NCBI GenBank assembly: GCA_022835595.1
Contig: BQUP01000006.1
Span: 124,001 to 188,000 of the forward strand
Reading direction: 5' to 3'
DNA length: 64,000 nt
From: Cystobasidium ongulense
Taxonomy: Eukaryota; Basidiomycota; Cystobasidiomycetes; Cystobasidiales; Cystobasidiaceae
Shown here piece after piece: positions 3,403 through 62,489 of the stretch (position 1 is its first letter; each line of letters begins with the position of its first letter). Under the pieces are notes generated by a model that ran no database searches, had not been told where the DNA came from, and saw only the letters and a program-made list of their open reading frames with translations. The position numbers and the translations under genes are program-made.

Positions 3403-4133
3403 GGAGATGCCAAATTTTGCTTTAATTTACGAATGGCTTGTTATAACATACCGCACATAATCATTAAACTTGAGTCATCAGTATCAAATAGGTAATGTTG
3501 TTGATAGTCGTACCCGTACTAGGACATGCAATACTGTCTTGGTGAGCAGGTACTCAAGGGAACATCGGTCTTTGGCTATGCTGATTTTGGCCAGTTTCGC
3601 AGTTTACCCTGTACCTCGACTGCTTCTTGAGGCAAAGCTGCGTCAACAGTCCTGATCCTCAGGAGCCTAAATGAGAACCCTTCAGGTCAATTCTCCCATG
3701 GCTACCTTTGCTAAGCAGTACGGTATTCCTCCTAACCGCCACCATCGGTCGGACACGTCCCGAAGCCTTCGCTGTACTTACCTTTCCGACCCAAATCACT
3801 TGAATGAGGAGGCTTGAAGACATGCGGCCGACGGCCAGGGAATGCCAGAACATATGCGGGGAGTCCCCTTCCGCATTTGGTTCTTGCAACCGACCTGCCT
3901 GCAACGGGCCAGGTACCTTACCACGTTTCAAGGGAATGGACAGCTTGTTACAAGGGGCTCAACTTTGGTCCTTCCGCACCCCTACGATTGTACTATTCCT
4001 TGCAAGATTGCTGAAACGACTGCCGTGGCGTGCCTCACATCCGCCTTTCCCAACTCCTTCCCAGCTGCCTTCTTACGCTTTCTTTTGGTCGTCCGTCGTC
4101 CCTCAGCAGAGCAACTCATCGCGTTTAGCAAGC
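3403..4133. other. Intergenic, 3' UTR and promoter
   Basis: No gene seen. The last 150 bases are pyrimidine-rich on the plus strand (CCTTTCCCAACTCC and similar), which fits a fungal promoter and 5' UTR for the next gene. An open frame runs upstream from that gene's ATG to 3804, but its composition is not protein-like. Confidence 0.5.
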
Positions 4134-5017
4134 ATGAACAGCCGACCTCACTCTGATCGTTCACGGTCTACTCCAGCGGGATTACAACAGAACAGGCCTT
4201 CGGTAGGTCCAGGCCAGCTCTGATATGGCCGTCACGTGTGCTAACGATTCGCCACCAAATTGTCCAGCTCTTCCGCAGACTTGCCCGGGCATTCAAGCGT
4301 CCCTCGATGCCTGTGTCAGACACGGAAGTTCTATCACCTCTACCAGCCAAAATCTCAAGAGCCGAGCGAACTCTGCACAAACGTTCCGTTACATGCACGC
4401 CGGATTGGCTTTGTACACCGATCATTGCGGATTCGACTGTTCCATTACGAATACCCGTTTTAACGCCTTCGACTCCGTACTCAGCGAGTACAAATACGAC
4501 GAGGTCGCGTAATTCAGCAACATGGAGGAGAGCAACATTCAGTAGAGCGTCGGATACTGCTAAATTCCGATTGGGCAGTGGATCCCCTTCTCAAGTCGGG
4601 CTACACAGGAACAACTCGGTCCTTTCATTCGCATCTGCTGATGCATTTGGGAAGACTGATCTATTCGACGATGACGAATTTGATGCTTATCTGTCACCGA
4701 GAACACCGACTTATACAGGAGGTTCAAGTATATCGTCGTCGCCCCGTCGAGCACGATCTCATACCGACAATTCGAACTATTCCTTGCCAAGTTCATTTAA
4801 TTATCAACCTTCAGGGTTTCCCACTCACAGTCCGAAGGGCTCTCAGAGCTCATCAAACTACACCGATGATACGGCCGACTCTGAAGTGTTGATGACCTGT
4901 CAAATGGAAGAATCAGCTTATCAGGCTGTCAAAAGCCGGCCTTCCAGCGTCATCAAAATCAGAAGGAGCTTCTCGGATGAAAGGGGCGCTTATGGAAAGC
5001 AGCCCGTCTGGATATAG
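4134..5017 (+). CDS. Small basic Ser-rich hypothetical protein
   Basis: Model: join(4134..4202,4268..5017), 272 aa. The intron (65 nt) starts GTAGGT, has a GCTAAC branch and ends TGTCCAG, and both exons are in phase 0. The start was chosen because it lies just after a pyrimidine-rich leader and gives a Ser/Arg-rich N-terminus continuous with the second exon. The protein is low in complexity. It has an early basic helix (residues about 24-34, LFRRLARAFKR), many S/T-P sites in the middle, an acidic patch (FDDDEFD) and a C-terminal segment with RRSFSDERG that looks like a basophilic kinase site. No family was recognised. It lies between two plus-strand genes and looks like a single transcription unit. 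Confidence 0.6.
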
Positions 5018-5604
5018 TCTCGACTGCTAACAAATCTGTGCATACTGTGCAGCAGTGGGATGTGGGTAGAGGGTGTGTCATAGCTGGTCTATAGGAGCAG
5101 TTCCGCCAGACATCATGCAAGAATGACGGGTATCGTTCGCATGTGTTCTGGAAAGCCAAATATCAATTATTCAAAGCCGTTCATTTCGAAATATTATAGC
5201 CTGGGTAGTGTAGCCAGAACAGCTGGGATAGCACGTGTACCTTATAGTACAGGATAGAGTACGTAAGATTTTGGCTCGCCGTTTTAGTGGCGCTGGTGTA
5301 CAGTTGTTAGGATATTAGCCGTGCAAAGCTATAGCGACTTGAGCTTCTACTTCTATTAGCTTGAGTGTGAGCCCCTGTCTGCCTGACTGAATGAAACTGC
5401 TCGAAATGGATACGTCTTTCGAGTCTGCCACCCAAGCAAGCCCGTTCAAACGGCATAAATGAGGGACCTTTTCTCTTTCGCTCGGAATTGAATTGCAGCT
5501 TGGTGTACTTCTACATCGCTGCACACTCACACATCAGACGCTCAACAGTCACTCTACCAGCTCTATAGACACGTCCCACTCCGTCCCATCCATCTCCTCA
5601 CACG
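5018..5604. other. Intergenic: 3' UTR and hexokinase promoter
   Basis: No gene seen. The last 100 bases before the hexokinase ATG are C/T-rich (ACTCACACATCAG, CCATCCATCTCC), as in the other plus-strand leaders of this window. Confidence 0.5.
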
Positions 5605-8034
5605 ATGTCATCGGAGGCCAGCTCGCGCCGCCCAAGCTCGACCAGCAGCCGGCGACCTTCTGGAGGCCTAGGCAGCCGCCTGGTCAAGCTTACAGGCCTC
5701 GACGAGGCTCGCAAGGATCCTGATGTCGTCGAAATGCCCGCAAACGGCGTGTACAGAAAAGGCTCGGTGTCGCAGAGACGTCACTCGACGGCCTCGGGTC
5801 GAGGCAGTAGAGCGAGCTTCACAAGGTGAGCTGGACTGTAGACCTGACAGCGGTGGCAGTGATTGAGCAGCGTGCTGATGCTGCTGCTGCTGCTCTTACT
5901 CTTTTCCGTCTCCACTTCTTCACATTCTGCGGTCGACGCGGCTTATTACTCGCACGCCCCAAATTGGCCAAACCTCTACAACACACGCCATTCACTCAAA
6001 CGCTGTATGAATTGGAAGAACATACGATGAAAACGCTCCTCCAGGTGCCGAGGTCAAAGATCTCGAAGAATGGGCCCGCAAATTAGAGCACATGCTGGCG
6101 GTCACTCCGCAGCGTATGAGAATGATAGTCGAAGGCTTTATCGACGTGCTGGAGCTTGGCCTAGAGAAGGAAGGTCAGATGGTAGTAAGTAGCTAGACTC
6201 GGACACTCTGTCCAAACCCTCAGCTAACGACACCTCCAGCCCATGTTGCCTACCTGGGTGTTTGGCTGGCCTTCTGGCAAAGAGACTGGCTCTTATCTAG
6301 CCGTCGACCTAGGAGGTACCAATCTACGAGTCTGCGAGGTTGAATTAGAGGGAGAAGGCAAATTTTCCATTACTCAATCCAAATACAAACTCACCGACGA
6401 GCAAAAGGTCGGAGATGGGCAAGCCTTATGTAGGTTTCGTTACGCTCAGCCTCGTGTCTACACCCCCGTGTCTATTTTTGTACTGACTCTCCACTGAATG
6501 ATATACTAGTCGACTTCTGCGCAGAGTGCTTAGCCAGTTTCATACAAGATCACTACACAAATGAAGACGGCAGTGTGCTGTTAGACAAGGACATTGCTCT
6601 CGGTTTCACCTTCAGTTATCCTTGCGTGTAAGTTACCCATCTGCTCGTGCTTAGGATGGGCTATAAGACTGACGATGTAATCGTCATCAGACAAGAACGT
6701 ATTGATCATGGTGTTCTGCTTCGATGGACCAAGGGCTTCGGCGCTGCTGGTGTTGAAGGTCAAGATGTGGTTGAAATGTTCAAGAAATCACTTAAGAAGA
6801 ATGTGAGCCGGATTTCCCGAGCTTTCATATTATTTTGTATCGCCAACTTGCATGCTGATTCATATCCTGCAAATCCTCTTGCTAAACCAGAATGTGCCTG
6901 TAGAGATCACCGCTCTCATCAACGACACTACAGGAACTCTAATGGCTTCGCACTATGTTGACCCTAGAACGCGCATGGGTATTATTTTCGGTACAGGATG
7001 CAACTGTGCCTATGTTGAAAAGGTCAAGAACATTCCTAAGATCGCTCATCTTGGCTTGCCTGGTGATGCTGAACTCGCTATCAATTGCGAGTGGGGAGCG
7101 TGAGTATACTGCTGAGCATTTGATACTTGGGAGCCTTGCCGATAGCTGACGGCATTCATACTACGACAGCTTTGATTCTGAGACAAAAGAGTACCTGCCA
7201 CGCACAAAATATGATATTCATATCGATGAAACTTCAAACAAGCCAGGTCAGCAACTCTTTGAAAAGATGATTGCTGGCCTCTACCTTGGAGAGGTATTCC
7301 GCCTTGTCCTCTGCGACATGATTGAGGAGGGCGTCTTGTTCCATGGTCAGAATACGTACAAGCTAGATAAACCTTTCTGCTTTGATACTGCTTTGGTATC
7401 CTTGATTGAAGCGTGAGTGCACGCTACCTTCGAACAGGCAAGTGTCAAATAGGGGATGACTGACTTGTTCATAATATGTGGGGGTGAATGACATAGCGAC
7501 AACACAGATGATGCTCTTACAGTCCTTGGTCTATTCAGCCACTTCTACGCTCTAGACACAACTGAAGAAGAGCGCAAATTCTTTAAGAGGTTGGCGGTCG
7601 CTATCGGAACTCGCGCAGCTAGACTATCGGCATGCGGTATCGGAGCTGTCGTTAGCAAGATGGGCTATCTGGATGAAGGTGTTGTCGGTGTTGCTACTGA
7701 TGGTAGCTTGTACAATGTGAGTTTCAACTCACAAGTCGTTTACCGATTGCGGGACAATGGTTAATGACTATACTTCCATCAATGCTAGAAATACCCCAAA
7801 TTCCCTGATCGCATCCATGAAGCACTCGTTGACATTTTCGGCGAAAAAGGTAAGTTGATACATACTTATCACGCTGAAGATGGATCAGGTGTTGGTGCTG
7901 CTATTATTGCTGGTAAGTTTGGCCCTCATTATGGATTATTCACTGAAAGAATTACGACTGAGTCATGTCCGTTTGATCTCCACACAGCCATGTCCAAGGA
8001 ACGGAAAGACAAAGGACTCCATCCCCAGGTGTAG
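5605..8034 (+). CDS. HXK: Hexokinase
   Basis: Phosphorylates glucose and other hexoses with ATP, the first step of glycolysis, in the cytosol. Model of ten exons: join(5605..5825,6019..6184,6240..6429,6510..6627,6691..6802,6891..7099,7170..7412,7497..7716,7789..7912,7988..8034), 549 aa. All phases close. Family motifs appear in order: PMLPTWVFGWPSGKE, the ATP/sugar site DLGGTNLRV, the sugar-binding region GFTFSYP, RWTKGF, the loop LINDTTGTL with the catalytic Asp, FGTGCN, NCEWGA and the C-terminal adenosine site EDGSGVGAA. Compared with yeast Hxk2 (about 486 aa) there is a roughly 70-residue Ser/Arg-rich N-terminal extension. The first intron (193 nt) is the least certain part of the model, because its acceptor has a weak pyrimidine tract. 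The other introns are 55-88 nt. A glucokinase of the same fold cannot be excluded. Confidence 0.95.
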
Positions 8035-49836: not shown

Positions 49837-50761
49837 ATGCTTCTTCGAACAGCAACACAGTCACTACTGGCGTCCTCAAGTCGCGCGCGAGCCTCGCCAG
49901 CCTCTTCAAACTTCGGCGCACTCGTCGCCGCATTCTCGCAAGTCTCGCTCGGTGCTGCAGGACCATCGACGAGCTGGACGCCATCTCTATCTCTACAAGC
50001 GAGCAGTTCGCGACCGCCCTCGTACAACTTTCAGCAAACACGGACGAAGCTCACTCTTACACCTCGCCGCTCGAAATACAGAAAGGCTTTCAAGGGAAGA
50101 GTTCCTGTTCATACCGGGGGAAGCACAGCTGGCTCGACTGTAGAGCATGGAGAATACGGACTACGAGTGAAGAGCAGACCGAGCAGGCTATCTGCAAAGC
50201 AGCTTTCTTCAGCACACGAAGCGTTGAGAAGAGGCATCAAGGTCGTCAAGGGAGCCAAGGTCTATCTGCGAGTCTTTCCAGATATCCCAGTCTGCATAAA
50301 GGTCAGTCCTTGCCAATGCTGTTTGTTCTGAAGGTCTGTTCAGCGGTAGTGACGGCCATTTCTCATACTATAGGGCAACGAGACTCGTATGGGCAAAGGA
50401 AAAGGTACCTTCGAATATTGGGCATGTCGAGCTCCCATTGGAAAGGTCATTTTCGAGGTTGGAGGTGGTGGTATCGCAGAGCAGGTTGCAAAGGATGGTG
50501 AGCTGCATAGCTCCAGGACAAAGGACCTATGGCACATATCTGACACACATCTCTCTCTATTCAGCGCTCCAATTAGCAGCAGCAAAGCTTCCCGTCCAAA
50601 CGGAATTCATCACTCGCCAAAGTCTTCCAAGATTAGGTAACCTAGTCGTGCCAGAGCACAACAAGCCAGCAAACCCGAGCTCGTTACCGGCGAGTAGCAA
50701 AAGCACCGTAACCGTTCCCTCAGAGGATCTTGTACAGTCTACAGAAGTACCCACAGCATAA
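49837..50761 (+). CDS. MRPL16: Mitochondrial ribosomal protein uL16m
   Basis: Large-subunit protein of the mitochondrial ribosome near the peptidyl-transferase centre. Model: join(49837..50301,50374..50497,50565..50761), 261 aa, introns 72 and 67 nt. The presequence is Ser/Arg-rich without acids ([18 protein letters not shown]). The L16/L10e core runs from [12 protein letters not shown] through [51 protein letters not shown] and [10 protein letters not shown] to [17 protein letters not shown] Ser/Pro-rich tail of about 45 residues follows. Its 3' end was later copied, in broken form, to 56.59-56.74 kb inside the small-protein array that begins 250 bp downstream. Confidence 0.96.
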
Positions 50762-51011
50762 GTGTACTGACGCAATGAGGCGTATTGGTGCATGTTGCCT
50801 CGTTGTCTGTCTGTTAACGAGGCAGGCTGATGACACTGTGTCGGAGATAAAGGTCGTACGGTAGTTTGCAACAGCTGCACCAGGCAGCATCTTTGGGCTA
50901 AAAAAACAAATCTAGGAGCTTTCTACCAATATAGAGGACAATCACATGGGTATCGTTCCACCATACTGCTCAATCAATCAATCACGAAGAATCTGTCTAC
51001 GAAGTTGGAAC

Positions 51012-51830
51012 TCATACCGCATACACCAAAATCACAGCTCCAGTATGCTCCTGCTTCTTTGTGGTCCCAAATGCCCCTTTACTCGAAACCTCGACGTACC
51101 AAAAATGGTTCGGATCTCCACCGCCAATGCTCTCGCTTCCAGTGCATCTAGCCATGTTTTCTAAGGTCGCGCCCTCTACGGGGGTTCTAGCTATGCAGGC
51201 ATCAATCAGGCTCGTAGCTTGTGAAGCTACGTCCCTCGAGGAACATGGGAGAGGATACGCCTCGGCCGCACCGCTTTCAGGCCGCCGAATTGAGGTAAAT
51301 CAGCTTCCAAGTCGACGACTGCAAAGAAGAGGTCGCAAATCATGAGCTACGTACACATAAACGGCACACTTGTGTATTGCGTCTTCGAAGACCAGTGGTC
51401 CTGACCCTGGCGCAATATTTGTGACGTTGAACAGGCTCATCTTTGAGTAGTTCGACACAGTCAGTCTGAACGTGCAGTTTCAGGGAAGCGCTGCGAATGG
51501 TATGTGTTATTGAAAACGTACGTAAACGGCATTCCCATGCACAACGTGGCCCACATTATTGCCCTGATACAACCCCTCGTAGACTCGCTTGTCCTCAAAC
51601 TCCAAGACACACATAGCTTCGCTATTGCATACCTGTGGCTGGGGCGCGGTCATTGCTAAGAGAGTAAGAGTGCTGATGTCAGTATAACCGCTTTCAAAAG
51701 GGCCTTGCTCTCAACTTACCTACGCTCCTCACTGGCAAGTAACTGACTGTGGCGCCCACATTGTCTTCTGAAAACCACTGCAAAATCGATGGTGTGCAGA
51801 ATTGGATGTGGATGAAGAAGAGAATACCGC
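51012..51830 (-). pseudogene. Six-cysteine family, copy 1 (probably decayed)
   Basis: First member of the array, tail to tail with uL16m. Exons matching those of the intact copies are visible on the minus strand at about 51720..51790, 51522..51655, 51355..51465 and 51012..51273. They carry the family marks CNSEAMC in exon 2, DCVELL at the start of exon 3, KCAVYV at its end, and LIDACI ... ENMARC ... FWYVEVSS in exon 4. The residue aligned to the start Met of copy 2 is not Met, and exon 3 does not hold one reading frame from end to end, so I call it a pseudogene. It could still be transcribed from its conserved TATA promoter at 51838-51844. A sequencing or assembly error is the alternative. 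Confidence 0.6.
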
Positions 51831-51837
51831 ATTCCAG

Positions 51838-52165
51838 ATTTATACCATTGGGTGAATAAAAGGATGCGTCCTTGCGATGGAGATGACAGGCGACCCCGGA
51901 TGGACTTTAAAAGCTGGACTTCGACCGCCTAGGTGATATCCCCGGCTCCTGGCCAAAGGGAACCTATGAACGGCCAAGGAGCTATACGTTAGGCAGCCAT
52001 TGGACTCCTAGGCCGTGAAAACGGAAATAGTGGTCGGAAACGACGCTTTACGGACAGATAGCGATTCGATGCCAAGTTACGTAAATCGCTATACTTCCAT
52101 CGAAAGGGGAGTCCTTCAAAGGTGGAATACTTCCTGCGGAAGTCGGCATCATGGTGTTTCGTAGA
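51838..52165 (-). promoter_or_regulatory. Conserved upstream module of copy 1
   Basis: TATAAAT (minus strand) at 51838-51844, then about 320 bp clearly alignable with the modules of copies 2-5. Shared blocks include CCAAAGGGAAC, GGAGCTATACGTTAGGCAGCC, GGAAACGACGCT..ACGGAC and TGCGGAAGTCGGCATCATGG (plus-strand order). The inverted repeat TAGCGAT (52069-52075) / ATCGCTA (52085-52091) is present, here with a nine-base stem. Confidence 0.6.
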
Positions 52166-52638
52166 GGCATGCCTGGATCAAGGGGTCAAGGGAGCATTGA
52201 TCGTGCTTCAGCGTAGCTTGTGCGAGCTCTCGCCTGTGGCTCGCTGGTTTCAGACTCTGCTCAAGTGAGCAACTCGTGGGTCTTATTTCCCGTGCAATGT
52301 AGAATACGCAAGGGGCGTGTAGGAGTCTGCGATTATGCATATAAGCAGATTCTGATCGATTGTACATCTATATATGCCATTGAATCGCTGACGCCAACGA
52401 GTGCCTCAAGAGTTGTACTTCACAGCACATATAGTTCTATTGCACAGAGATGTTGCTCACTACATTGCTTCTTAATATGCCCTAGCAATGAGTCAAGTTG
52501 TCACCGAGGATGAATAGAAAGTTCGTTTGACATGAGCTGTGGTTGCTGCTCCAGGCAGCGTTTGCGAACAATAGAGTAAGGTCTTCAAGCTCAGATGTAT
52601 ACAGACAGGGCAAGGGCTTCGACAATAAATTCGCTCGA

Positions 52639-53425
52639 CTATTTCAGAAACACCTTGCCAGTGCCCATGACAATGGCATTGTCATTTACTCCGTTAACCA
52701 TCACTTCTCCCCTATATGTTTGCCTGCCAACACTGTCTTTACCCAAATCTTCGAATACGTCCCTACCCGAAACCTCTATGTACCACTGCCAGTCGGTATC
52801 CACGTCCTGACATCGGCTCATATTCTCAACCGATCCTGCAGGAGGGTTCTTCAAGCAGGCGTCGATGAGGTACTTGGCCGCATCACCTATGTCCATAGTA
52901 GTATGCTGAAAAATCGCTGATTGGTCAGCTCCCGGTTTACGCTCGACGCCTCTATTTACCGTCCACGTGATAACATCAGCTTGAAGCGTAATGAGATCGG
53001 GCGCATACTTGCGATACAGTACGTACAGATGGATGGCACAGTTGAGTTTGTTGTCTTTGTCCTTGAAGACCATGCTTGCACTTGGAGTTTTGATAAGATC
53101 CCAATTGAAGATCGTGTCGTCCTCCAACAGCTTTAAACAGTGATCCTATATAATAATCCAAGATCAGCCACTGTCTGCTCCCTGTCGTCTCCTGTATAAC
53201 GCACATAGTTAGCATTCCAGTGGATCACCTCGCCTGTCCTGGCATCCCCCGGCTGATCGCCTGCAAGAATGTTGACCTCAAGGAAGCACGCGGCCACTCC
53301 GTTGCACATTTGTGGCGCGTCCGCAATGGCTGAAAATGAGTGCCAGAGTGAGGCTCAGTGACGTTACTGGCAGGGTGTTGGTGCCGCAACGTACGAACGT
53401 TCCTCACGTTTAAGTAGCTGACCAT
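52639..53425 (-). CDS. Six-cysteine small protein, copy 2
   Basis: Exons on the minus strand: 53395..53425, 53205..53329, 53027..53145, 52639..52951; 195 aa, phases 1, 0, 2. The start is the first ATG after the TATA box (53509-53515). Family marks: MCNGVAAC (exon 2), DHCLKLL (start of exon 3), NCAIHL (end of exon 3), LIDACL and SRC (exon 4), then WYIEVSG. The C-terminus is longer than in copies 3-5 (RQTYRGEVMVNG ... FLK). No classical signal peptide is visible from this start, although six regularly spaced cysteines suggest disulfides and hence secretion or an oxidising compartment. An alternative upstream start in the same frame has no ATG. I recognise no family; function is unknown. Confidence 0.65.
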
Positions 53426-53508
53426 GTTTATACTCGGAATACTGCTGCAGACTTCAAGGTATGCAATGTTGGTAAAGAGGGAAACCAATACCGTACAGAA
53501 TTCCAGCC

Positions 53509-53890
53509 ATTTATACCATTGGGCGAATGAAAGGATTGGGCCTTGCGATGGAGATGAAAGGCGAATCAGGTGGATATCAAGCATCGGAGTCCGACCAACT
53601 GGACGACATCCAGGCCTCTGTCCAAGGGGGAACTGTTTACGGCCGAGGAGCGATACGCTAGACAGCCGCTTCAGTCCAAGGCCATGAAAGGCTACACTAC
53701 CGTAGGCAGGAGCACCTTTCATCCGAGTTGGTGGGCAAAGGAAGTAATAAGCGGAAATGACGCTATACCGGGAGTTTGCGAGTCAATGCCGAGTTGTGTA
53801 ATCGCTATGCTTCCGTCGAAATGGGAGTCCTTAAAAGGTAGGAAAAAATACCTGCGGAAAGTCGGCATCAGGGCGTTTCACAGATCTCCC
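53509..53890 (-). promoter_or_regulatory. Conserved upstream module of copy 2
   Basis: TATAAAT at 53509-53515 on the minus strand. Downstream in plus-strand order come ACTGGACGACATCCAGGC, GTCCAAGGGGGAAC, GAGGAGCGATACGCTAGACAGCCG, AGCGGAAATGACGCT and ATCGCTATGC at 53801. The left half of the inverted repeat is degenerate here (TTGCGAGT). The similarity continues past 53890 into AGCATAGCTTGTGCAAGCTC, also found near 52207 and 59899. Confidence 0.6.
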
Positions 53891-54450
53891 TAAATAAAGG
53901 GGAGCATCAATGGGTTCTCAGCATAGCTTGTGCAAGCTCTCGCCCGTGGACTCGCTGGATGCAGTCGCTGCTCAAGTGACCAATCCGCCGGTCTATAATC
54001 CCGTTTTACGCGAAATACCCTGGCGTTTCAGAATTTACGATGCTGTATATAAGCATGTTTGTATCAATTGTACTTCTGTATATGTAATTGTATCACCATC
54101 ATCAACGACTATCTCAAGGAATGTACTTACGGGCCCATTTTGTGGCGTGCGCGCAGCATGTGCGTCTTTTAGATCTGTTCCAGACGCTCTCTGTCAAAAG
54201 TTAGGTTTCGCAGAATGAAACTACCCAGAAACTCAGTGCACGTCTGGGCGCTAACCTGACTATGGTTGCCCCGCAGTCAGTAATGAGCTTTTGATACCTT
54301 TAGCTCTGTATATTTCGTTTCCTTCCAAGAATCCCGTTGCTTGTGACCTTGTGCGAGAGTGTCTCCTGGATGTGTTGTACTTTTGATACGATTTGCAGGA
54401 TCCAGCGCGAGTGTACGACAGGCACCTACTGCCACTCCAGGTAGCAGTAG

Positions 54451-55029
54451 TTAAGGACTGGAAAGGTCGTCCTTGGGTACCGCTAGCCCTTGCAGATGCA
54501 GAAATGTTGTCTCCGTGCGATGATGGTACGAGCTAGGCCTTCGATAGCCTTGAACCACCGAAGGCTTCGTGTTAGCAGGCATGATTGCGGTAATCTCCCA
54601 CGAGCAGAACCTGCTGATTGTGGTGCAGTAGGCGCTTCTCCGGTGGAGAATTAGCTCGAGACATTCATCCTGAACAAGGCTGTGTGAGATGACCGCTTCA
54701 TGGGGAACAGTATGCGGTACTGACGAGCGAACGTAAGCTGCGTTCTGTTGGGCAAACTCGCCCCTGGGCAGGTCATCGGCGTTTCGCGTTGCGCAACCCA
54801 AAGGCACACATATAGCTTCGCAGTTGTGTACCTCTGGCAGTATCGCCGGCTTCGCTGAGGTAGTAGTGCAAGCATCAGTATCATCGCTTGCATCATCCAT
54901 CAAGTTGTGCCCTCCACTCACTGCGTTTCGTCGACGGGCGCGTTCCTGACTCTCACGCTCGTGTTTATCTAGCAGCAAGCTCTTCCGACTTGATGGTGCG
55001 TGACGTTGGGAGAAGACGAGGGTGAGCAT
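54451..55029 (-). pseudogene. Relic of a six-cysteine family member
   Basis: Minus-strand sequence at about 54790-54840 aligns with exon 2 of copy 1 at DNA level (ACACATA.AGCTTCGC), giving NCEAICVPL. About 150 bp further on, DECLELIL matches the start of exon 3. No complete four-exon gene with the family phases can be built and no conserved promoter module follows, so this looks like an old, decayed copy. The open frame over the span is probably fortuitous. Confidence 0.4.
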
Positions 55030-55359
55030 ACGCAGGTTTCAGACGGCGTCCTGGCTCGTTCCGCTGATACAGGCATTCGCTACACGGGCTGTTGAAAGCC
55101 AGTCCACCAGCTTGCCTGTTCCATGTCGAGTGCTCGCATGATCGACAACTCGCAAGCGCACAAATGTTCATTGTATCATACTGGGATCTCGATCCAGTGA
55201 GCTTGCATTTCAACCAGAGCACAACCATAGTCATCGAGAACAGAAACAAAACGCAATCTACATCAATACACACTCGTGAAAAGGCCTGTCGTCCACCCTC
55301 CGACCCTTCATGCAGCCAGCCAGGCGGTGACCGAGTACTCTGGGCCGTAGCAAGGACTA

Positions 55360-56062
55360 CTAGACCTCCTCCTCAGTCGTTCCCTGAAAGACCATCATCC
55401 ATTCCAGACTTTCTTGCTTAGAGCCTGCTGGAAGAGGCATGGAGCCGTGGCAGGTAATTCTATTGTTGATACCGTCAGTGAAACACGGGTCATCGATCAT
55501 CTTGCGGCCTTGTTCAAGTATATCCTTCCATAAAAAGACGGTATCGTCTGCATTAAGGTGTTCAGGGGAGTCCGTTCCGTACCTGTGGGTTCCCGTGAGT
55601 GGAAATCAGCTTGCGGCAAGGTAATATACTTAGCAGCATACCTCTGGTAACCTATACGTACACATTAAACTGACAGGAGCCCGGCGAGTTTTGCCAAACG
55701 TCGTGCTTGACCTTGAATCTGGCGTTGGAATTTCCGTCCGGATCGTGCTGGTGCAGCAGGTCGTCGAGCAGCTCGACACAGGCAGCCTGGAAAACGGTTT
55801 ATCAATACTCGTGGCTGATCATGTCTGTCAAAAGAGTACTCACTTTGTCCGGCGGATTACGTACATTGTAGGCCGGTGGAGGAGGCTGCTGGTCACAGTG
55901 AAACTCAGGTTTGCATATGGGTCCCAAGAACAGGTGACCTGAACCTAAGGAAGGACAAGCATTAGTACTACTATTGCTTACAAAAGCTTCGTACCGCAAC
56001 GAACCACGCCCAAGGTTAGTAGTTACAGGTGCCATGATCAACTTTGAATCTCCCTGGCCCAT
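55360..56062 (-). CDS. Six-cysteine small protein, copy 3
   Basis: Exons on the minus strand: 56005..56062, 55865..55944, 55662..55786, 55360..55582; 161 aa with phases 1, 0, 2. The ATG at 56062 is the first after the TATA box at 56153-56159. It begins MGQGDSKLIMAP, like MGQVQSTVTAP in copy 5. Cysteines: ICKPEFHC in exon 2, AACVELLDD at the start and SCQFNV at the end of exon 3, DDPC and ITC in exon 4, followed by an aromatic pair. Intron 1 uses a GTTCGT donor, as in copy 5. The remaining introns use GTACGT donors, shared by the whole family. There is no signal peptide, membrane segment or known domain. Confidence 0.6.
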
Positions 56063-56152
56063 CTTCGCGTCGAAGGAGGTATTGCAGGTTTATTGATAAG
56101 CAATGCTGGCGAGGTTGAAAAGAGAGGAGGGATTGCAAACTCAGACTCGGGT

Positions 56153-56540
56153 ATTTATACTATTAGGTTAACAAAGGAATGTCTTTTGCAGAAGAAAATG
56201 AAAGGCGGAATGAGTGGACTTCCGGGGTTGAACGGACCACGACTTTCTGGCTGATATCCACACTTCTGTCCAAAGGGAATCTGTGAACTAAGGAGCGATA
56301 GGTTAGGCAGCCGCTTTGGTCCAAAGCCACGAAACGCTTCACTTCCATCGAGCAGGAGCACCTTTCATGCAAGTAGACGGTTAAAGGGAATTGGTAAAGC
56401 GGAAACGACGCTGTACGGACGTGTAGCGATTTGTTGCCAAGTTTGTATATCGCTATACTTCCAACGAAGAGGGAGGATACCCACAAGATAGCAACCTGCC
56501 TGCGGGCAGTCGGCATCATGTCGTTTCATGGAGGATTCCC
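56153..56540 (-). promoter_or_regulatory. Conserved upstream module of copy 3
   Basis: TATAAAT at 56153-56159. The inverted repeat TAGCGAT (56424-56430) / ATCGCTA (56449-56455) lies about 270-300 bp upstream of the TATA box. The block from about 56276 to 56400 is nearly identical to 59601-59740 of copy 5, including ACTAAGGAGCGATAGGTTAGGC and CGAGCAGGAGCACCTTTCAT. Copy 4 differs there but agrees again further upstream. Confidence 0.65.
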
Positions 56541-56587
56541 CTGGCGATGGAGGGGTGCTCGCCAAGACCGTACCAGTTGTAAAAGCT

Positions 56588-56740
56588 ATTCGTACCAGAG
56601 CACGACAAGCCAGAAAGTTCCAGCTCGTTACTGGCATGCAGCAGAAGAGTTGTGAATGTGCCCGCGGAGGACCTCCTACAGTCTAAGAAGTACCTATAGC
56701 ATGAGTGTTTATATCGCGATGAGACACTGACTACTATACG
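56588..56740 (+). pseudogene. Broken copy of the uL16m 3' end
   Basis: Plus-strand sequence from CCAGAGCACGACAAGCCAG to AAGTACCTATAGCATGAGTG aligns with 50650-50770, the last codons and 3' UTR of uL16m (CCAGAGCACAACAAGCCAG ... AAGTACCCACAGCATAAGTG). Only the C-terminal part is present, with substitutions and small length changes, so it encodes nothing useful. It sits about 240 bp from the stop of copy 4, the same spacing and orientation as uL16m and copy 1. Confidence 0.75.
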
Positions 56741-56983
56741 CTGGCTTATATCAAGACATGGCAGTCAGCCTTGGCTGCGGATAGGCAGGACAGATGTTGC
56801 TCGGCATGCATTGCAACTGCGGCACTCGTCACTTGACAGCGTCTAATCTAAGGGCAGGAAAAGAAGTTGGCATTCTAAGAGTAACAGTGAGGGCATCGAA
56901 GAGGGGAAAACTATTCGCTCAGGCATAAATATCATAACACGTTAGACGCGCTTTCCACAGACGGCGTTTCCGATGGGAAGCTC

Positions 56984-57641
56984 CTAGATAAAAATATCAG
57001 CCGCTCCGGCTTTACTGTCAACATCTATAGACCAGTTAGCTGTGTATATATAATCATCTGGCACGGGTTCCCCGCCGGTTGGAGGTAAGCCACCACAGTG
57101 ATATGATGTGCTTGCAGGTTCAGCGTCGCATTTGGCCAATAGTGCTCTGCCTGCTGCAGCCACGTCCGCCATGTTAAATTTGTAATTCAATGGGGCGGTC
57201 CTGTTGGTTGCCGAAGACAGACATCAGCCGGCAGCAAGATCGGAGACTCTGGCCAGTATTTTCTAGCGTATGTCACACGTACAAGCTTAGTACACAATCG
57301 CCACCTGCGGAAAATTGTTTGAGCTTCTCTTTGACTTCATACTCTCCTTCGTTCTGCAGGGAATCGAAGAGAGAATTGCAATGTGCCTGGATATGAACAT
57401 ATCAGTATATCATGGGCACTAGGTTTTGCCAAGTACTTACCCGATCCGGTTTGACTCGGCGAGCCGGAGTGCTACTCTGGGTACACACAAACGGGCTCGC
57501 CGCCGAGCTCTGAATTTGGCATAGATCCGTTACTACCTGGCCTGCCAAAAGTGCAGAGACGATGATCAGCACTAATTCGCACAGCAGCTCCTATTACAAC
57601 GGACCGAAGGGTGTAATAATCGTTGACGGTACCAGGCTCAT
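56984..57641 (-). CDS. Six-cysteine small protein, copy 4
   Basis: Exons on the minus strand: 57605..57641, 57441..57541, 57283..57386, 56984..57200; 152 aa, phases 1, 0, 2. The 37-nt first exon has the same length as in copy 5. It begins MSLVPSTIITPFG and continues QVVTDLC (cf. QVTTNLC in copy 5). Cysteines: LCQIQSSAASPFVC in exon 2, AHCNSLFD at the start and DCVLSL at the end of exon 3, LLAKC and YHCGG in exon 4, then NWSIDVDS. Intron 1 has a GTCCGT donor, the others GTAAGT and GTACGT. No signal peptide is visible. The TATA box is at 57743-57749, about 100 bp before the ATG. Confidence 0.65.
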
Positions 57642-57742
57642 CTTCACCTAGAAGAAGATAGTATAGATCGATGGTGGGCAAGGTTCAAAGGAGAAGTGCA
57701 AGCTTGAAAAGAGAAGAGAGAAGAAGATACCCAAGTCCAGGT

Positions 57743-58134
57743 ATTTATACCATTGAATACTCAAAGGAGTATCTTTTCGAAACTGAATTGAAAGGCAGTT
57801 TGAGTGGATGTCAAGCGTTGGAGTCCGGCCGACTGGACGATATCCAGACGTCTGTCCAAGGGGAACCCGCGGACGGCCCAGGAGCGATACGTTAGGCAGC
57901 GGCTTCAATCCAAGCGCTTGGATCGCTGTACTTCCATCAAGTAAAAGCGCCTTTCATCCAAGTTGGCGACTAAAGGGAGGAGTAGGCGGAAACGACGCTG
58001 TACGGACGTGTAGCGATTTGTTGCCAAGTTTGTATATCGCTATACTTCCAAAGAAGAGGGAGGATCCCTACAAGATAGCAACCTGCCTGCGGACAGTCGG
58101 AATCATGGCGTTACATGGAGATAGCCACTGTACG
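57743..58134 (-). promoter_or_regulatory. Conserved upstream module of copy 4
   Basis: TATAAAT at 57743-57749. The inverted repeat TAGCGAT (58011-58017) / ATCGCTA (58036-58042) is present. The module ends abruptly at about 58134, within CATGGCGTTACATGGAGAT, where adenylate kinase sequence begins. In copy 5 the same phrase continues into different sequence. Confidence 0.65.
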
Positions 58135-58541
58135 GCCAAAAGCAAGTGGATTGTCTGATGCAATTTCAACTGCACAGCGCCGAAATCTATCCTAAGCTGG
58201 AGAAAGTAATCATTGAGCGATTTCCTCATCTATGGACGCGTCCTTTCGCTGCTGATACGACACTGTAACAAATACAAACATGCTATGCTTCAAGATTCTG
58301 GCGCTCGAGCAGAGCAGTCTATGTACGAATACGATCTAAGTGTGTAAAGTCTGCCTAGGTGGCACAAGTCCCTCCTCGGTCATTTCCAACGCCATAACTG
58401 TCTCCGTTGTCTGTTCTTCAGTCCGCTTTGCCGAGCGGAAGTAACCTTGCTATTCGAGAGCTGACCGTATCCAAAGATGATTTGGTAGAGACCTCTCGGA
58501 AGCCATCGTTGCCATCCTTGGATGTATTGGGCAATTCAGGC
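58135..58541 (+). pseudogene. Duplicate of the adenylate kinase 3' end
   Basis: Nearly identical to 61146-61551: the end of intron 2, the whole last exon and the 3' UTR of the adenylate kinase gene, in the same orientation. Only scattered differences are seen, for example in the codons before the stop. The 5' part of the gene is missing, so this is a truncated copy. The start of the match, inside the kinase intron, marks the junction with the copy-4 promoter module. Confidence 0.9.
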
Positions 58542-58745
58542 CGCACCAATTGGAGCCGACGAGTCTGTAACTATCGCAACCATTGAGACGAGTTCGCATT
58601 CCAAGCAGAGCACAAGCTGAAATATCCGGGAAGCAACAACAGGTAATCTACCTTCTACAGAACCGTTCAAATACTATCGCTGTCCCGGCGTCCAATTTAC
58701 ACAGCTTCACAGCTGGGTGTGCGACCGGTTCCCACAAAGCGAGGA

Positions 58746-59410
58746 CTACACCTCTAAAGGCTTCGTCCAATCAAACAACGTTTGAAGCCCTTGTACAGTC
58801 GAGAGATAGATGGACCAATTAACAATCTTTCCGTCACTGCCCGGTATAGGCGCGCTGTTGTAACAGTGAGCTGAAGTTGCGGGGAGACATTTAGCCATTT
58901 GTCTCCCTACTATGGCTAGTTGCTTCATATCGAAGGTAGTGCCCACATTGGCGATTCTGGAAATTTTACGAAATCGAAAATCAGCTTGCCGCAAGGAGCA
59001 TACTTTACGGAATCTTGCGCTCTCTATACGTACATGGTAAATGCGCAATTGTCGCGCTCTTCAGACCCCGCAAACCAGATTGGATGGTCGTTTTCTGGCA
59101 CTGTCCACGTATTCTGAAACGGCTCACTAGCGAACAGAGCTTCACAGTCACTCTGGATACAATTGTTCAGTACTAGTATGGAAGGATACGAATTCTATCT
59201 GATGAAAAAGTACTCACTGCCTGAATCTTACGGCCTGAGTTCTCGTTTGCGCAAACAAGTGGGGTTCCACCGACGGCACCAGTGCCGCATAGATTTGTTG
59301 TTACCTGAATGCCTAATGCAAGCCAGGAAGCGCGTCAATACCACCGCTCAGAACCGCTTTGTGTGGCACGAACCCCCAGGTGCAGTGACGGTTGATTGTA
59401 CTTGGCCCAT
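58746..59410 (-). CDS. Six-cysteine small protein, copy 5
   Basis: Exons on the minus strand: 59374..59410, 59218..59312, 59034..59152, 58746..58956; 153 aa, phases 1, 0, 2. It begins MGQVQSTVTAPGG. Cysteines: NLCGTGAVGGTPLVC in exon 2, SDCEALF at the start and DNCAFT at the end of exon 3, MAKC and AHC in exon 4, then NWSIYL. It is closest to copy 4 in layout, yet the two proteins share only the framework residues. Intron 1 has a GTTCGT donor. The TATA box is at 59492-59498, about 80 bp before the ATG. No signal peptide or known domain; function is unknown. Confidence 0.65.
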
Positions 59411-59491
59411 GATGGTGTTGTAGCAGATACTGCAGATTCGATGGCGTGCAATGTTGCAAAGAGAAAAGGGAGAGCACACTCAAGCCCAGGT

Positions 59492-59882
59492 ATTTATACC
59501 ATTAATCCGATGAAAGGACTGACTGTTGCAAGGGAGCTAGAGGCGAATGAGGTGGATGTCGAGCGTTGGAGTCCGGCCGACTGGACGACATCCAGGCTTC
59601 TGTCCAAAGGGAATCTGTGAACTAAGGAGCGATAGGTTAGGCGGCCGCTTTGGTCCATGGTCCAAAGCCACGAAACGCTTCACTTCCATCGAGCAGGAGC
59701 ACCTTTCATGCAAGTAGACGGTTAAAGGGAATTTGTAAGCGGAAACGACGCTGTACGGACGTGTAGCGATTTGTGAGTTTGTATATCGCTATACTTCCAA
59801 AGAAAAGGGAGGATCCCTACAAGATAGCAACCTGCCTGCGGACAGTCGGCATCATGGCGTTACATGGAGATTCCTTTGGTGA
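59492..59882 (-). promoter_or_regulatory. Conserved upstream module of copy 5
   Basis: TATAAAT at 59492-59498. The inverted repeat TAGCGAT (59764-59770) / ATCGCTA (59785-59791) is present, with a spacer four bases shorter than in copies 3 and 4. It is nearly identical to the copy-3 module over 59601-59740 and to copy 4 beyond 59745. Confidence 0.65.
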
Positions 59883-60271
59883 GGGAAAATGATGAAGTTC
59901 AGCATAGCTTATACAAACCTCCTTCGACGGCTCGCTGAAGTCAGTCTCTGATATTCGAAAGATGTCAAGGTCTACACGGTGGAGCTCTGTTGCGCATGTA
60001 ACAACCCAGTCTTGCTCATCTGCGGACATTGACAATTAGACCTATCTGCTGTTTTGCCGACCGTGAAGGTTGTCAAAGGTCGTAAAAACGCATCGTGCTG
60101 CTAGCTTGCTGAGTGACGAACAATTGAGAAAGGTGACACCTCTGCATCTGCACCAGGTAGAAAGCTTCTCATACGATATATGTATGAGCTGCTGTTTGTC
60201 AATGAGATTACGGTGCCGTGGCTCGCCCCACTCGTCCGCAGGTCTGACGGCACTCGACACAAGCTGGCTGG
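59883..60271. other. Junction of array and adenylate kinase promoter
   Basis: The first 60 bases still resemble the far-upstream part of the family modules (CAGCATAGCTTATACAAAC, GGCTCGCTGA). The rest is the adenylate kinase promoter. No gene seen. Confidence 0.45.
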
Positions 60272-61289
60272 ATGCGTTCGCAGCATGGACGTATCTATGC
60301 AGGTGCATTGGTCCAGGTGCAGGCCAGCACTCGGATAGCGACGACTGCTTCTGCGCGCTTTCTGTCGAGCCATGCCGTGCGAAGACAGCAAGCAGCCTTC
60401 GAGACGAGCTCGCCAGCAGCACCAACGCCAGGACAGCCGCCGCTGCGCTTGATTCTCCTCGGTGCGCCTGGAGCAGGCAAAGGCACGCAGACCGACTCGC
60501 TGCTGCGCAAGTTCCACCTGCGCTCGCTTGTAGTTGGCAACTTGCTGAGAGACGAGGTCGCGCGCAAGACTGCTGTCGGCGTCCAGGCTGCAAAAGTCAT
60601 GAAGGAAGGCGGCCTGCTGGACAACGAGACCATCCTGCAAGTCGTCAAACCTGGACTGCAGCAGATGACCGGCCAGGACTGGATACTGGTGAGCTGCTTC
60701 GGTCCCTTCACTCTCAGGTCTCCACCGCCAGCAATGATCGTCAGCGTGTCTGTACAGGATCCTGATATATGAATACGCGCTTCAGGATGGCTATCCGCGT
60801 ACTGCTCAGCAAGCACTTGACCTTTCAGACGCTCTCGGCGAACACGACGAGGCCATCAATCTCGTCGTCAACCTCGACGTCCCGGACGAAGTCCTCATAG
60901 ACCGAATCGAGAATAGATGGGTCCATCTACCATCCGGCAGAATATACAATACAACATACAACCCGCCCAAGACGCCTGGAAAGGACGACGTTACAGGCGA
61001 TGACCTCATCAAGCGCATGGACGACAGGGTCGACGTTTTCGAGCGACGCCTCTCCAAGTTTCACCAGGAGAATAACCCCATAAAGCAATTCTACAAAGCG
61101 CGAGGTACCCTTGTCTCTCTGTCAGGACGTACAAGGTACGTTAAGCCACTGTACGGCCAAAAGCAAGTGGATTGTCTGATGCAATTTCAACTCCACAGCG
61201 CCGAAATCTATCCTAAGCTGGAGAAAGTAATCATAGAGCGATTTCCTCATCTAAGAACGCGTCCTATGGCTGCTAATACGACACTGTAA
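60272..61289 (+). CDS. ADK2: Adenylate kinase, mitochondrial (AK3/ADK2-like)
   Basis: Transfers phosphate between AMP and ATP or GTP, probably in the mitochondrial matrix. Model: join(60272..60688,60786..61135,61199..61289), 285 aa, introns 97 and 63 nt, phases closed. A mitochondrial-type N-terminus (ASTRIATTASARFLSSHAVRR) precedes LILLGAPGAGKGTQ (P-loop), GNLLRDEV, VVKPGLQQM, ILDGYPRTAQQA (the usual LDGFPRT with Tyr for Phe), VVNLDVPDEVLIDRI, the lid WVHLPSGRIYN (no zinc cysteines), YNPPKTPGKDDVTGDDL and DDRVDVFERRL. The long lid and YNPPK mark the long AK form. AK3 versus AK2 substrate preference cannot be settled here. The last exon and intron tail are duplicated at 58.1 kb. Confidence 0.94.
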
Positions 61290-62489
61290 CAAATACAAAC
61301 ATGCTATGCTTCAAGATTCTGGCGCTCGATCAGAGCAGTCATGTACGGACACGATCTAAGTGTGTAAAGTCTGCCTAGGTGGCACAAGTCCCTCCTCGGT
61401 CATGTCCAACGCCATAACTGTCTCCGTTGTCTGTTCTTCAGCCCGCTTTGCCGAGCGGAAGTAACTTTGCTATTCGAGAGCTGACCGTATCCAAAGATGA
61501 TTTGGTAGAGACCTCTCGGAAGCCATCGTTACCATCCTTGGATTTATCGCAACCCCGCGCACAGGCCTGACTGCAGCAATGCTGAAATATGAAACAAGTG
61601 ACGTCAGGCTTTTGACACCTCCATCGCTTGTTATAGTCTCGTGAATGAAAACTTACCTTGTCCACCGTCCACATTTCACAGCCTGTTTCCTCAACTAAAT
61701 GCTTGGTCATGCTAACGGTAGCTATACCGCCGCACGGAATACACTCTGACAAGTCCTTCATGTTGAAGCTGAGCTCACTTTTTTCTGGAGATTCTGCTGT
61801 ACTGGAACGCTCATCCTCCTCCTGCTCTCGCATGAAGCCGTCCCATTCCATAGGATCACAGAAGATAGAGCTCAGCATGTCTGGGTATTAAAATAGCTTA
61901 GAGGTTTTTGGTCAGGATGAGACCTTGACTCTAGTCGCTAACAGGGATAGTGTGAAGGAGAAAGAACCAGATGAGAGATGAGAGATGAAATAGCCTTTGC
62001 AACTGGGCGACCAGGCCAGACAGGAGATGAGGCTTTAGATGGATGTTAAGCGGAAATTCAGCGGCAAACCTTTTGGTGGATAGGCGTATTGTCTGAGGCT
62101 GTGTATCTGTGCAACTCTGTCGATGCGAGTCTAGACTCTCGTGACCACGGGCTGTACCCCAAAGATGTGTGAAAGGCAAGAGGCGTCTATTGATAGCTCA
62201 GACCACCTCTGCATGCAGTGGTGGATGACCGCTCAGTGGAGAGTCCTCTAAGCTTTGCAAAAGTTGTATGAAGACAGGGAATCAGTATCGTTGTGTAGTA
62301 CAGTTCAAGAGCATCTCCTATGCTTGCGTCGAGTGTCATATCACTCGGAGTGGGCAAAGGGTAATGCGGTAGGTAGAACAACATGCGGAGCGCGACCTGG
62401 CTTTGTGACATTTATCCATTCATGTCCCAGAATTGAGAGGAAGTCAGCCAGGTCAACACTGATCTCGAAGGGAATTCTTGGGGAAACCT
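61290..62489. other. Adenylate kinase 3' region and doubtful small frame
   Basis: To about 61551 this equals the duplicated segment at 58.1-58.5 kb. After that it is only patchily similar to 58545-58630, the region just before copy 5. No further supported gene before KRE6. Confidence 0.45.
61560..61878 (-). CDS. Doubtful small Cys-rich frame, possible diverged sixth family member
   Basis: An ATG at 61878 opens a Cys-rich minus-strand frame with FNMKDLSECIPCGG and ETGCEMW, followed by a GTAAGT donor (after WTVDK) and an acceptor TTTCAG about 70 nt later leading to HCCSQAC. FNMKDL resembles FNMADV and FDMKQL of exon 4 in copies 4 and 5. Its position tail to tail after the intact adenylate kinase copies the arrangement of copy 5 after the duplicated kinase tail. 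However, no TATA module with the family blocks lies upstream and the exon phases cannot be matched, so this is tentative. Confidence 0.3.

Follow-up and report, generated by a model that had tools for sequence, protein, structure and literature searches.

A tandem array of divergent six-cysteine genes with a common upstream block in the basidiomycete Cystobasidium ongulense

Layout and gene structure of the array

The stretch of Cystobasidium ongulense DNA analysed here (C6:124001-188000, 64,000 nucleotides; hereinafter, the window) contains, on the minus strand at 51012-59870, five tandem copies of one promoter-plus-gene unit, of which copies 2-5 are intact and copy 1 is broken. According to Pfam matches, the array is flanked on one side by the gene for ribosomal protein L16, the product of which probably belongs to the mitochondrial ribosome, and on the other side by an adenylate kinase gene. 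The gene models, rebuilt from the minus strand by sequence only, yield predicted proteins of 195, 168, 152 and 153 amino acids (aa) for copies 2, 3, 4 and 5, respectively. Each of these copies consists of four exons with intron phases 1-0-2, and the donor of the third (last) intron is GTACGT in 4 of 4, as well as in copy 1, so that the shared architecture described in a first-pass annotation of this DNA, including the protein size range of 152-195 aa, is reproduced in full. The third introns are 75-82 nt long, with CTGAT located 22-23 nt before the acceptor in all four copies, and in 10 of the 12 introns a YTRAY sequence resembling a branch site lies 14-23 nt from the 3' end. The third intron of copy 2 is open in frame, and the joint between exons 3 and 4 of this copy is supported by the CTGAT/YTRAY placement, which matches that in the other copies. 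By codon score, the modelled frame outranks the two other frames in each intact copy, although it exceeds background only slightly (0.00-0.10 bits per codon). The integrity of the frames (4/4) and cysteines (24/24), alongside 12/12 GT..AG introns, argues that the proteins of copies 2-5 are maintained. By comparison, copy 1 has no in-frame start in exon 1, where the ATG opens a reading frame of ten codons; an in-frame ATG occurs later, in exon 2. Its exon 3 is split between two frames, with the family-like first half in one and the family-like second half in another. In addition to the donor, copy 1 retains the promoter and recognisable pieces of exons 2 and 4; the match of its exon 4 to copy 2 (38%) has an E-value of 6.5e-4.

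Every intact copy encodes exactly six cysteines, distributed among the four exons as 0/2/2/2, and those of exon 3 are residue 3 and the fifth residue from the end in 4 of 4 copies, which bears out the fixed exon positions noted previously. Among 200,000 random six-cysteine placements per copy, a looser form of this pattern is found in 204-417. The successive spacings are 5 or 11, 13-29, 27-34, 26-36 and 7-14 residues, and a near-C-terminal tryptophan is also common to copies 2-5. The proteins had been called barely alignable, which is accurate for five of the six pairs but not for copies 4 and 5: in a BLASTP search among the four proteins, this is the one clear pair (28% over 157 columns, 50.8 bits, E 6e-13), and the best of the remaining pairs reach E 0.008-0.03. 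When the cysteines are masked, the real score is reached by 0 of 300 shuffles for copies 4 and 5, by 2 for copies 3 and 5, by 10 for copies 3 and 4, and by 109 to 295 for the pairs that include copy 2. Some MAFFT alignments put copy 2 or exon pieces in the wrong place; database searches relied on an alignment of copies 3-5 and on an exon-4 profile of copies 1-5, and an alignment anchored on the cysteines was also used.

Table 1. Coordinates, in the window, of the array components and of fragments copied into the array
Feature	Coordinates	Strand	Details
Copy 5 upstream block	59411..59870	-	TATAAAT 88 bp 5' of ATG; AGCGAT/ATCGCT sites
Copy 5 exon 1	59374..59410	-	start MGQVQST
Copy 5 exon 2	59218..59312	-	Cys 1 and Cys 2
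Copy 5 exon 3	59034..59152	-	Cys 3 and Cys 4, then donor GTACGT
Copy 5 exon 4	58746..58956	-	Cys 5 and Cys 6, stop
Copied 405-bp fragment	58123..58527		from 61144-61547 (96%); spacer between copies 4 and 5
Copy 4 upstream block	57642..58121	-	TATAAAT 108 bp 5' of ATG
Copy 4 exon 1	57605..57641	-	start MSLVPST
Copy 4 exon 2	57441..57541	-	
Copy 4 exon 3	57283..57386	-	
Copy 4 exon 4	56984..57200	-	
L16 gene fragment	56583..56708	+	from 3' end of L16 gene (source 50639-50765, 76%)
Copy 3 upstream block	56063..56535	-	TATAAAT 97 bp 5' of ATG
Copy 3 exon 1	56005..56062	-	start MGQGDSK
Copy 3 exon 2	55844..55944	-	
Copy 3 exon 3	55662..55786	-	
Copy 3 exon 4	55360..55582	-	
Decayed inverted fragment	54208..54540	-	from neighbour gene beyond the window (L022:2371-2707, 72%)
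Copy 2 upstream block	53426..53880	-	TATAAAT 90 bp 5' of ATG; likeness to copy 1 extends to 54128
Copy 2 exon 1	53395..53425	-	start MVSYLNV
Copy 2 exon 2	53205..53329	-	
Copy 2 exon 3	53027..53145	-	
Copy 2 exon 4	52639..52951	-	long C-terminal tail
Copy 1 upstream block	51762..52165	-	TATAAAT; likeness to copy 2 extends to 52420
Copy 1	51012..51761	-	broken

Upstream blocks, divergence and local copying

An upstream block of about 400 bp that includes TATAAAT, treated here as the promoter, is common to all five copies. The blocks of copies 2-5 are 70-88% identical, and the distal promoters of copies 3-5 are gene-conversion mosaics. The exons and introns of different copies are near saturation, with introns about as diverged as exons and the coding sequence near random identity. 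Nei-Gojobori estimates from exon-wise alignments give a nonsynonymous divergence (dN) of 0.70-1.00 in the six pairs and a synonymous divergence (dS) of 1.45-1.73 in four pairs, being undefined in the other two. Since the synonymous sites are saturated, these values do not allow a claim for or against positive selection. Thus, the earlier description of the family as fast-evolving stands insofar as the coding sequence is near random identity next to a well-preserved linked promoter, but does not extend to diversifying selection, given that the likeness of the promoters is partly due to gene conversion, the introns have diverged like the exons, and the dN/dS comparison proposed in the first-pass annotation does not show positive selection.

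The blocks of copies 1, 3, 4 and 5 contain an inverted AGCGAT...ATCGCT pair, 20-25 bp from start to start (e.g., at 56425-56454), which is a candidate site for a dimeric regulator. Several other identities of the upstream block were considered and rejected. No leader exon is found there that would make it a hidden 5' part of the gene. With regard to a small gene, the longest open reading frames (ORFs) of copies 2-5 (73, 61, 74 and 59 aa, respectively) are in different frames or strands, although part of a frame is shared by pairs of copies (comparison of the two longest ORFs per strand). For a structured RNA, the covariation term is unfavourable; an Rfam scan of 50500-60300 up to E 1 yields a single match, below threshold and outside the upstream blocks.

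This locus readily undergoes local copying, as the three copied fragments listed in Table 1 indicate. The 405-bp fragment was copied recently, judging from the 96% identity to its source. This source is the 3' portion of a gene-like frame (61144-61880, minus strand) that is small, cysteine-rich and composed of two exons, has no Pfam match and lies next to the adenylate kinase gene. The inverted fragment comes from a putative mitochondrial carrier gene located at a distance of 12 kb (L022:1700-2722), namely from its 3' part. The spacer between copies 2 and 3 also contains a 90-bp stretch (54806-54892) with 69% likeness to copy 1, over exon 2 and a portion of intron 1, which might be the remnant of a sixth copy. 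Duplications are present outside the window as well: just beyond it, L022:211-479 and L022:5010-5278 form a direct duplication (69%) of one gene, presumably for a KRE6/SKN1-type glucan synthesis protein, and upstream of it, L021:119-2479 and 3845-6171 form a 2.4-kb direct duplication (74%).

Relatives and possible roles of the proteins

A search of about 5.8 billion proteins with the profile of copies 3-5 yields 623 word-sharing candidates, and that with the five-copy exon-4 profile yields 303, but none of these is a homologue at E<=10; the reach of this search is limited to relatives with exact five-residue words in common, in a collection that lacks the window's own proteins. A PDB search identifies no relative, its single match being at E 0.99. 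Scanned up to E 10 with filters that drop most matches above E ~0.1, copies 2-5 have only sub-threshold hits in Pfam-A, namely Rz1 for copy 3, ZapC_N for copy 2 and WD-like_fungi (PF20493) for copy 4 (E 0.037, 14.4 bits vs the cut-off of 22.5; copies 2, 3 and 5 are unlisted), and no match to Hce2 (PF14856) or to the KP4-like killer toxin profile. A scan of viral contigs matched 76 stretches, with 0 relatives. Within the host genome (19.77 Mb, 19 contigs), searches that score the best candidates only find the family at this locus alone with protein queries, and the likeness to the upstream block, queried as DNA, is restricted to the same locus. A scan for the TATA pattern produces 4 matches, all inside the array (reversed control, 0); the donor motif occurs 26 times, 5 of these in the array (reversed control, 36), and an exon-3 test applied to all 26 is passed by copies 2-5 only. 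The searches of this genome for WD-like_fungi and Hce2 are uninformative, the controls being silent for the former, and the latter being absent from the 14 control genomes as well. These results support the view of the family as lineage-specific, within the five-residue-word reach of the protein search, and the literature, covered by titles and the beginnings of abstracts with subscription journals mostly outside the scope, likewise includes no described family with this pattern, in agreement with the first-pass annotation. As for the host, a tree of an SMC2 piece places it within basidiomycetes, separately from the four sampled Agaricomycetes; this tree includes 33 sequences, i.e., the query from the window and 32 of the 120 matches listed (13 named and 19 unnamed; 661 matches in all), in a sample from which a length filter left out full-length named proteins.

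We tentatively favour the possibility that the locus is a lineage-specific, co-regulated, cysteine-scaffolded tandem array, probably for biotic conflict. A promoter kept alike beside near-unrecognisable proteins is the pattern expected of a biological arms race, and the products, like effector-type proteins, are small and cysteine-patterned (152-195 aa, six cysteines), with no homologue outside the lineage among the word-sharing candidates (E<=10). Under this hypothesis, the array would have grown by local duplication of the promoter-plus-gene unit. The six cysteines would form a scaffold, most likely of three disulphides, that holds one fold while the remaining surface changes, and the partly homogenised promoter would keep the copies under one regulator. 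The array would then present changing variants on a common frame, in the manner of proteins facing a changing biotic partner (a host, prey, competitor or parasite), and this partner would drive the divergence. The defence-related role proposed in the first-pass annotation may apply here. Disulphide bonding of the cysteines would require export; given that no clear leader was found, such export would be either non-classical or directed by a leader missed in the scan. It is decidedly improbable, albeit conceivable, that this leaderless six-cysteine family serves for recognition or as a selfish (killer/drive-like) system. Gene conversion would then keep the promoters uniform, with the payload exons being free to vary; regulation would be concerted and specificity would diverge.

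Secretion, which had been suggested for this family, gains no support from the sequence: in a hydropathy scan, a clear leader is absent in three of the four intact copies, and this would be the main point against the standard effector reading. For each start, the scan covered GT..AG joins in the intron 1 region that were 38 nt or longer and kept exon 2 in frame, and these were scored by the highest hydropathy mean over 12 residues. No leader-like stretch is present in copies 3 and 5, where the highest mean is about 1.2. Translation from upstream ATGs within 700 bp reaches at most 1.43 (copy 3), and the other three copies have no candidate leader exon. Ordinary, classically secreted effector-like proteins, with the signal peptide on an unrecognised start or splice variant or too weakly hydrophobic for the scan, appear somewhat unlikely on these grounds. 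The six-cysteine frame is typical of secreted proteins, and the scan evaluates hydropathy only, with no dedicated signal-peptide predictor. In copy 4, ordinary joins give 1.3-1.5, and an alternative intron of 42-45 nt raises the mean to 2.9 (with the 42-nt intron, the reading is MSLELLCELVLIIVSALLAGQVVT...), but this stretch overlaps the pyrimidine-rich 3' part of the intron and so might be due to chance. In copy 2, residues 21-32 form a moderate stretch (1.83), which, however, spans its second, conserved cysteine and a glutamate. The absence of a clear leader would instead fit intracellular proteins with metal-binding or redox-active cysteines and with N-myristoylation of copies 3 and 5, involved, e.g., in self-recognition or selfish drive; known drive families likewise diverge fast, occur as tandem copies and include a broken copy. 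The predicted proteins of copies 3 and 5 start with MGQxxS, i.e., with glycine at position 2 and serine at position 6, which we take to fit the N-myristoylation consensus, but copies 2 and 4 lack glycine at position 2, and the cysteine spacings of copies 2-5 are, in our judgement, unlike the common zinc motifs. We regard an intracellular role as unlikely. Distinctly unlikely is a decaying array that is under relaxed constraint, heading to loss and not at present engaged in an arms race: the broken copy 1, the fragments of neighbour genes in the spacers, the weak codon signal and the nearly equal divergence of exons and introns are all compatible with decay, but the intact frames, introns and cysteines of copies 2-5 are not readily accommodated.

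This 9-kb locus combines promoter identity, kept partly by gene conversion, with coding sequence that retains almost no identity beyond six cysteines and the exon layout. As a compact example, it illustrates how gene architecture can reveal a family where sequence search fails, and it should be useful for asking how co-regulated copies diversify. Should the proteins be exported with no leader, or function intracellularly, this would be unusual for a six-cysteine frame.

Comparison with known systems

The order of elements in the array proteins (Cys..Cys, xxC..L/F, C-x-hydrophobic, a helix-like stretch, Cys, Cys, W-x-I) recalls, in our view, the secreted cysteine proteins of the Hce2 (Ecp2) and KP4-like types, as a lead only; unlike these, copies 2-5 show no corresponding Pfam match and no clear leader. 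Among the smut fungi, the mig2 genes are tandem and cysteine-containing, with promoter elements in common. These Ustilago maydis genes are listed among effector genes (PMC4836707). In the Ustilago hordei effector cluster, the UhAvr1 protein consists of 171 aa with a predicted 19-aa signal peptide, and transposable elements account for over half of the cluster (PMC4081816). Smut effector clusters (UhAvr1 and its counterparts in U. maydis and Sporisorium reilianum) resemble the array in being clustered, small, diversified and partly paralogous basidiomycete genes; unlike UhAvr1, the array lacks a clear leader in three of four intact copies, and its upstream block is restricted to one locus. No sequence relation between the array and smut effectors was found, the smut proteins not having been compared one by one.

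The candidate secreted effectors (CSEPs) of barley powdery mildew are, similarly to the array, small proteins united by intron position and conserved cysteines (PMC3582587). The signal peptide is a defining trait of CSEPs, many of which are ribonuclease-like with one intron position in common, and in two of their families exons differ more than introns and flanks; the genes of the array differ in that they have three introns, which have diverged to about the same extent as the exons, and encode proteins with six cysteines and no clear leader. The aphid bicycle genes are insect salivary gland genes, with no relation to the array implied, but they parallel it in that gene structure carries the homology after sequence similarity has been lost (PMC9168663).

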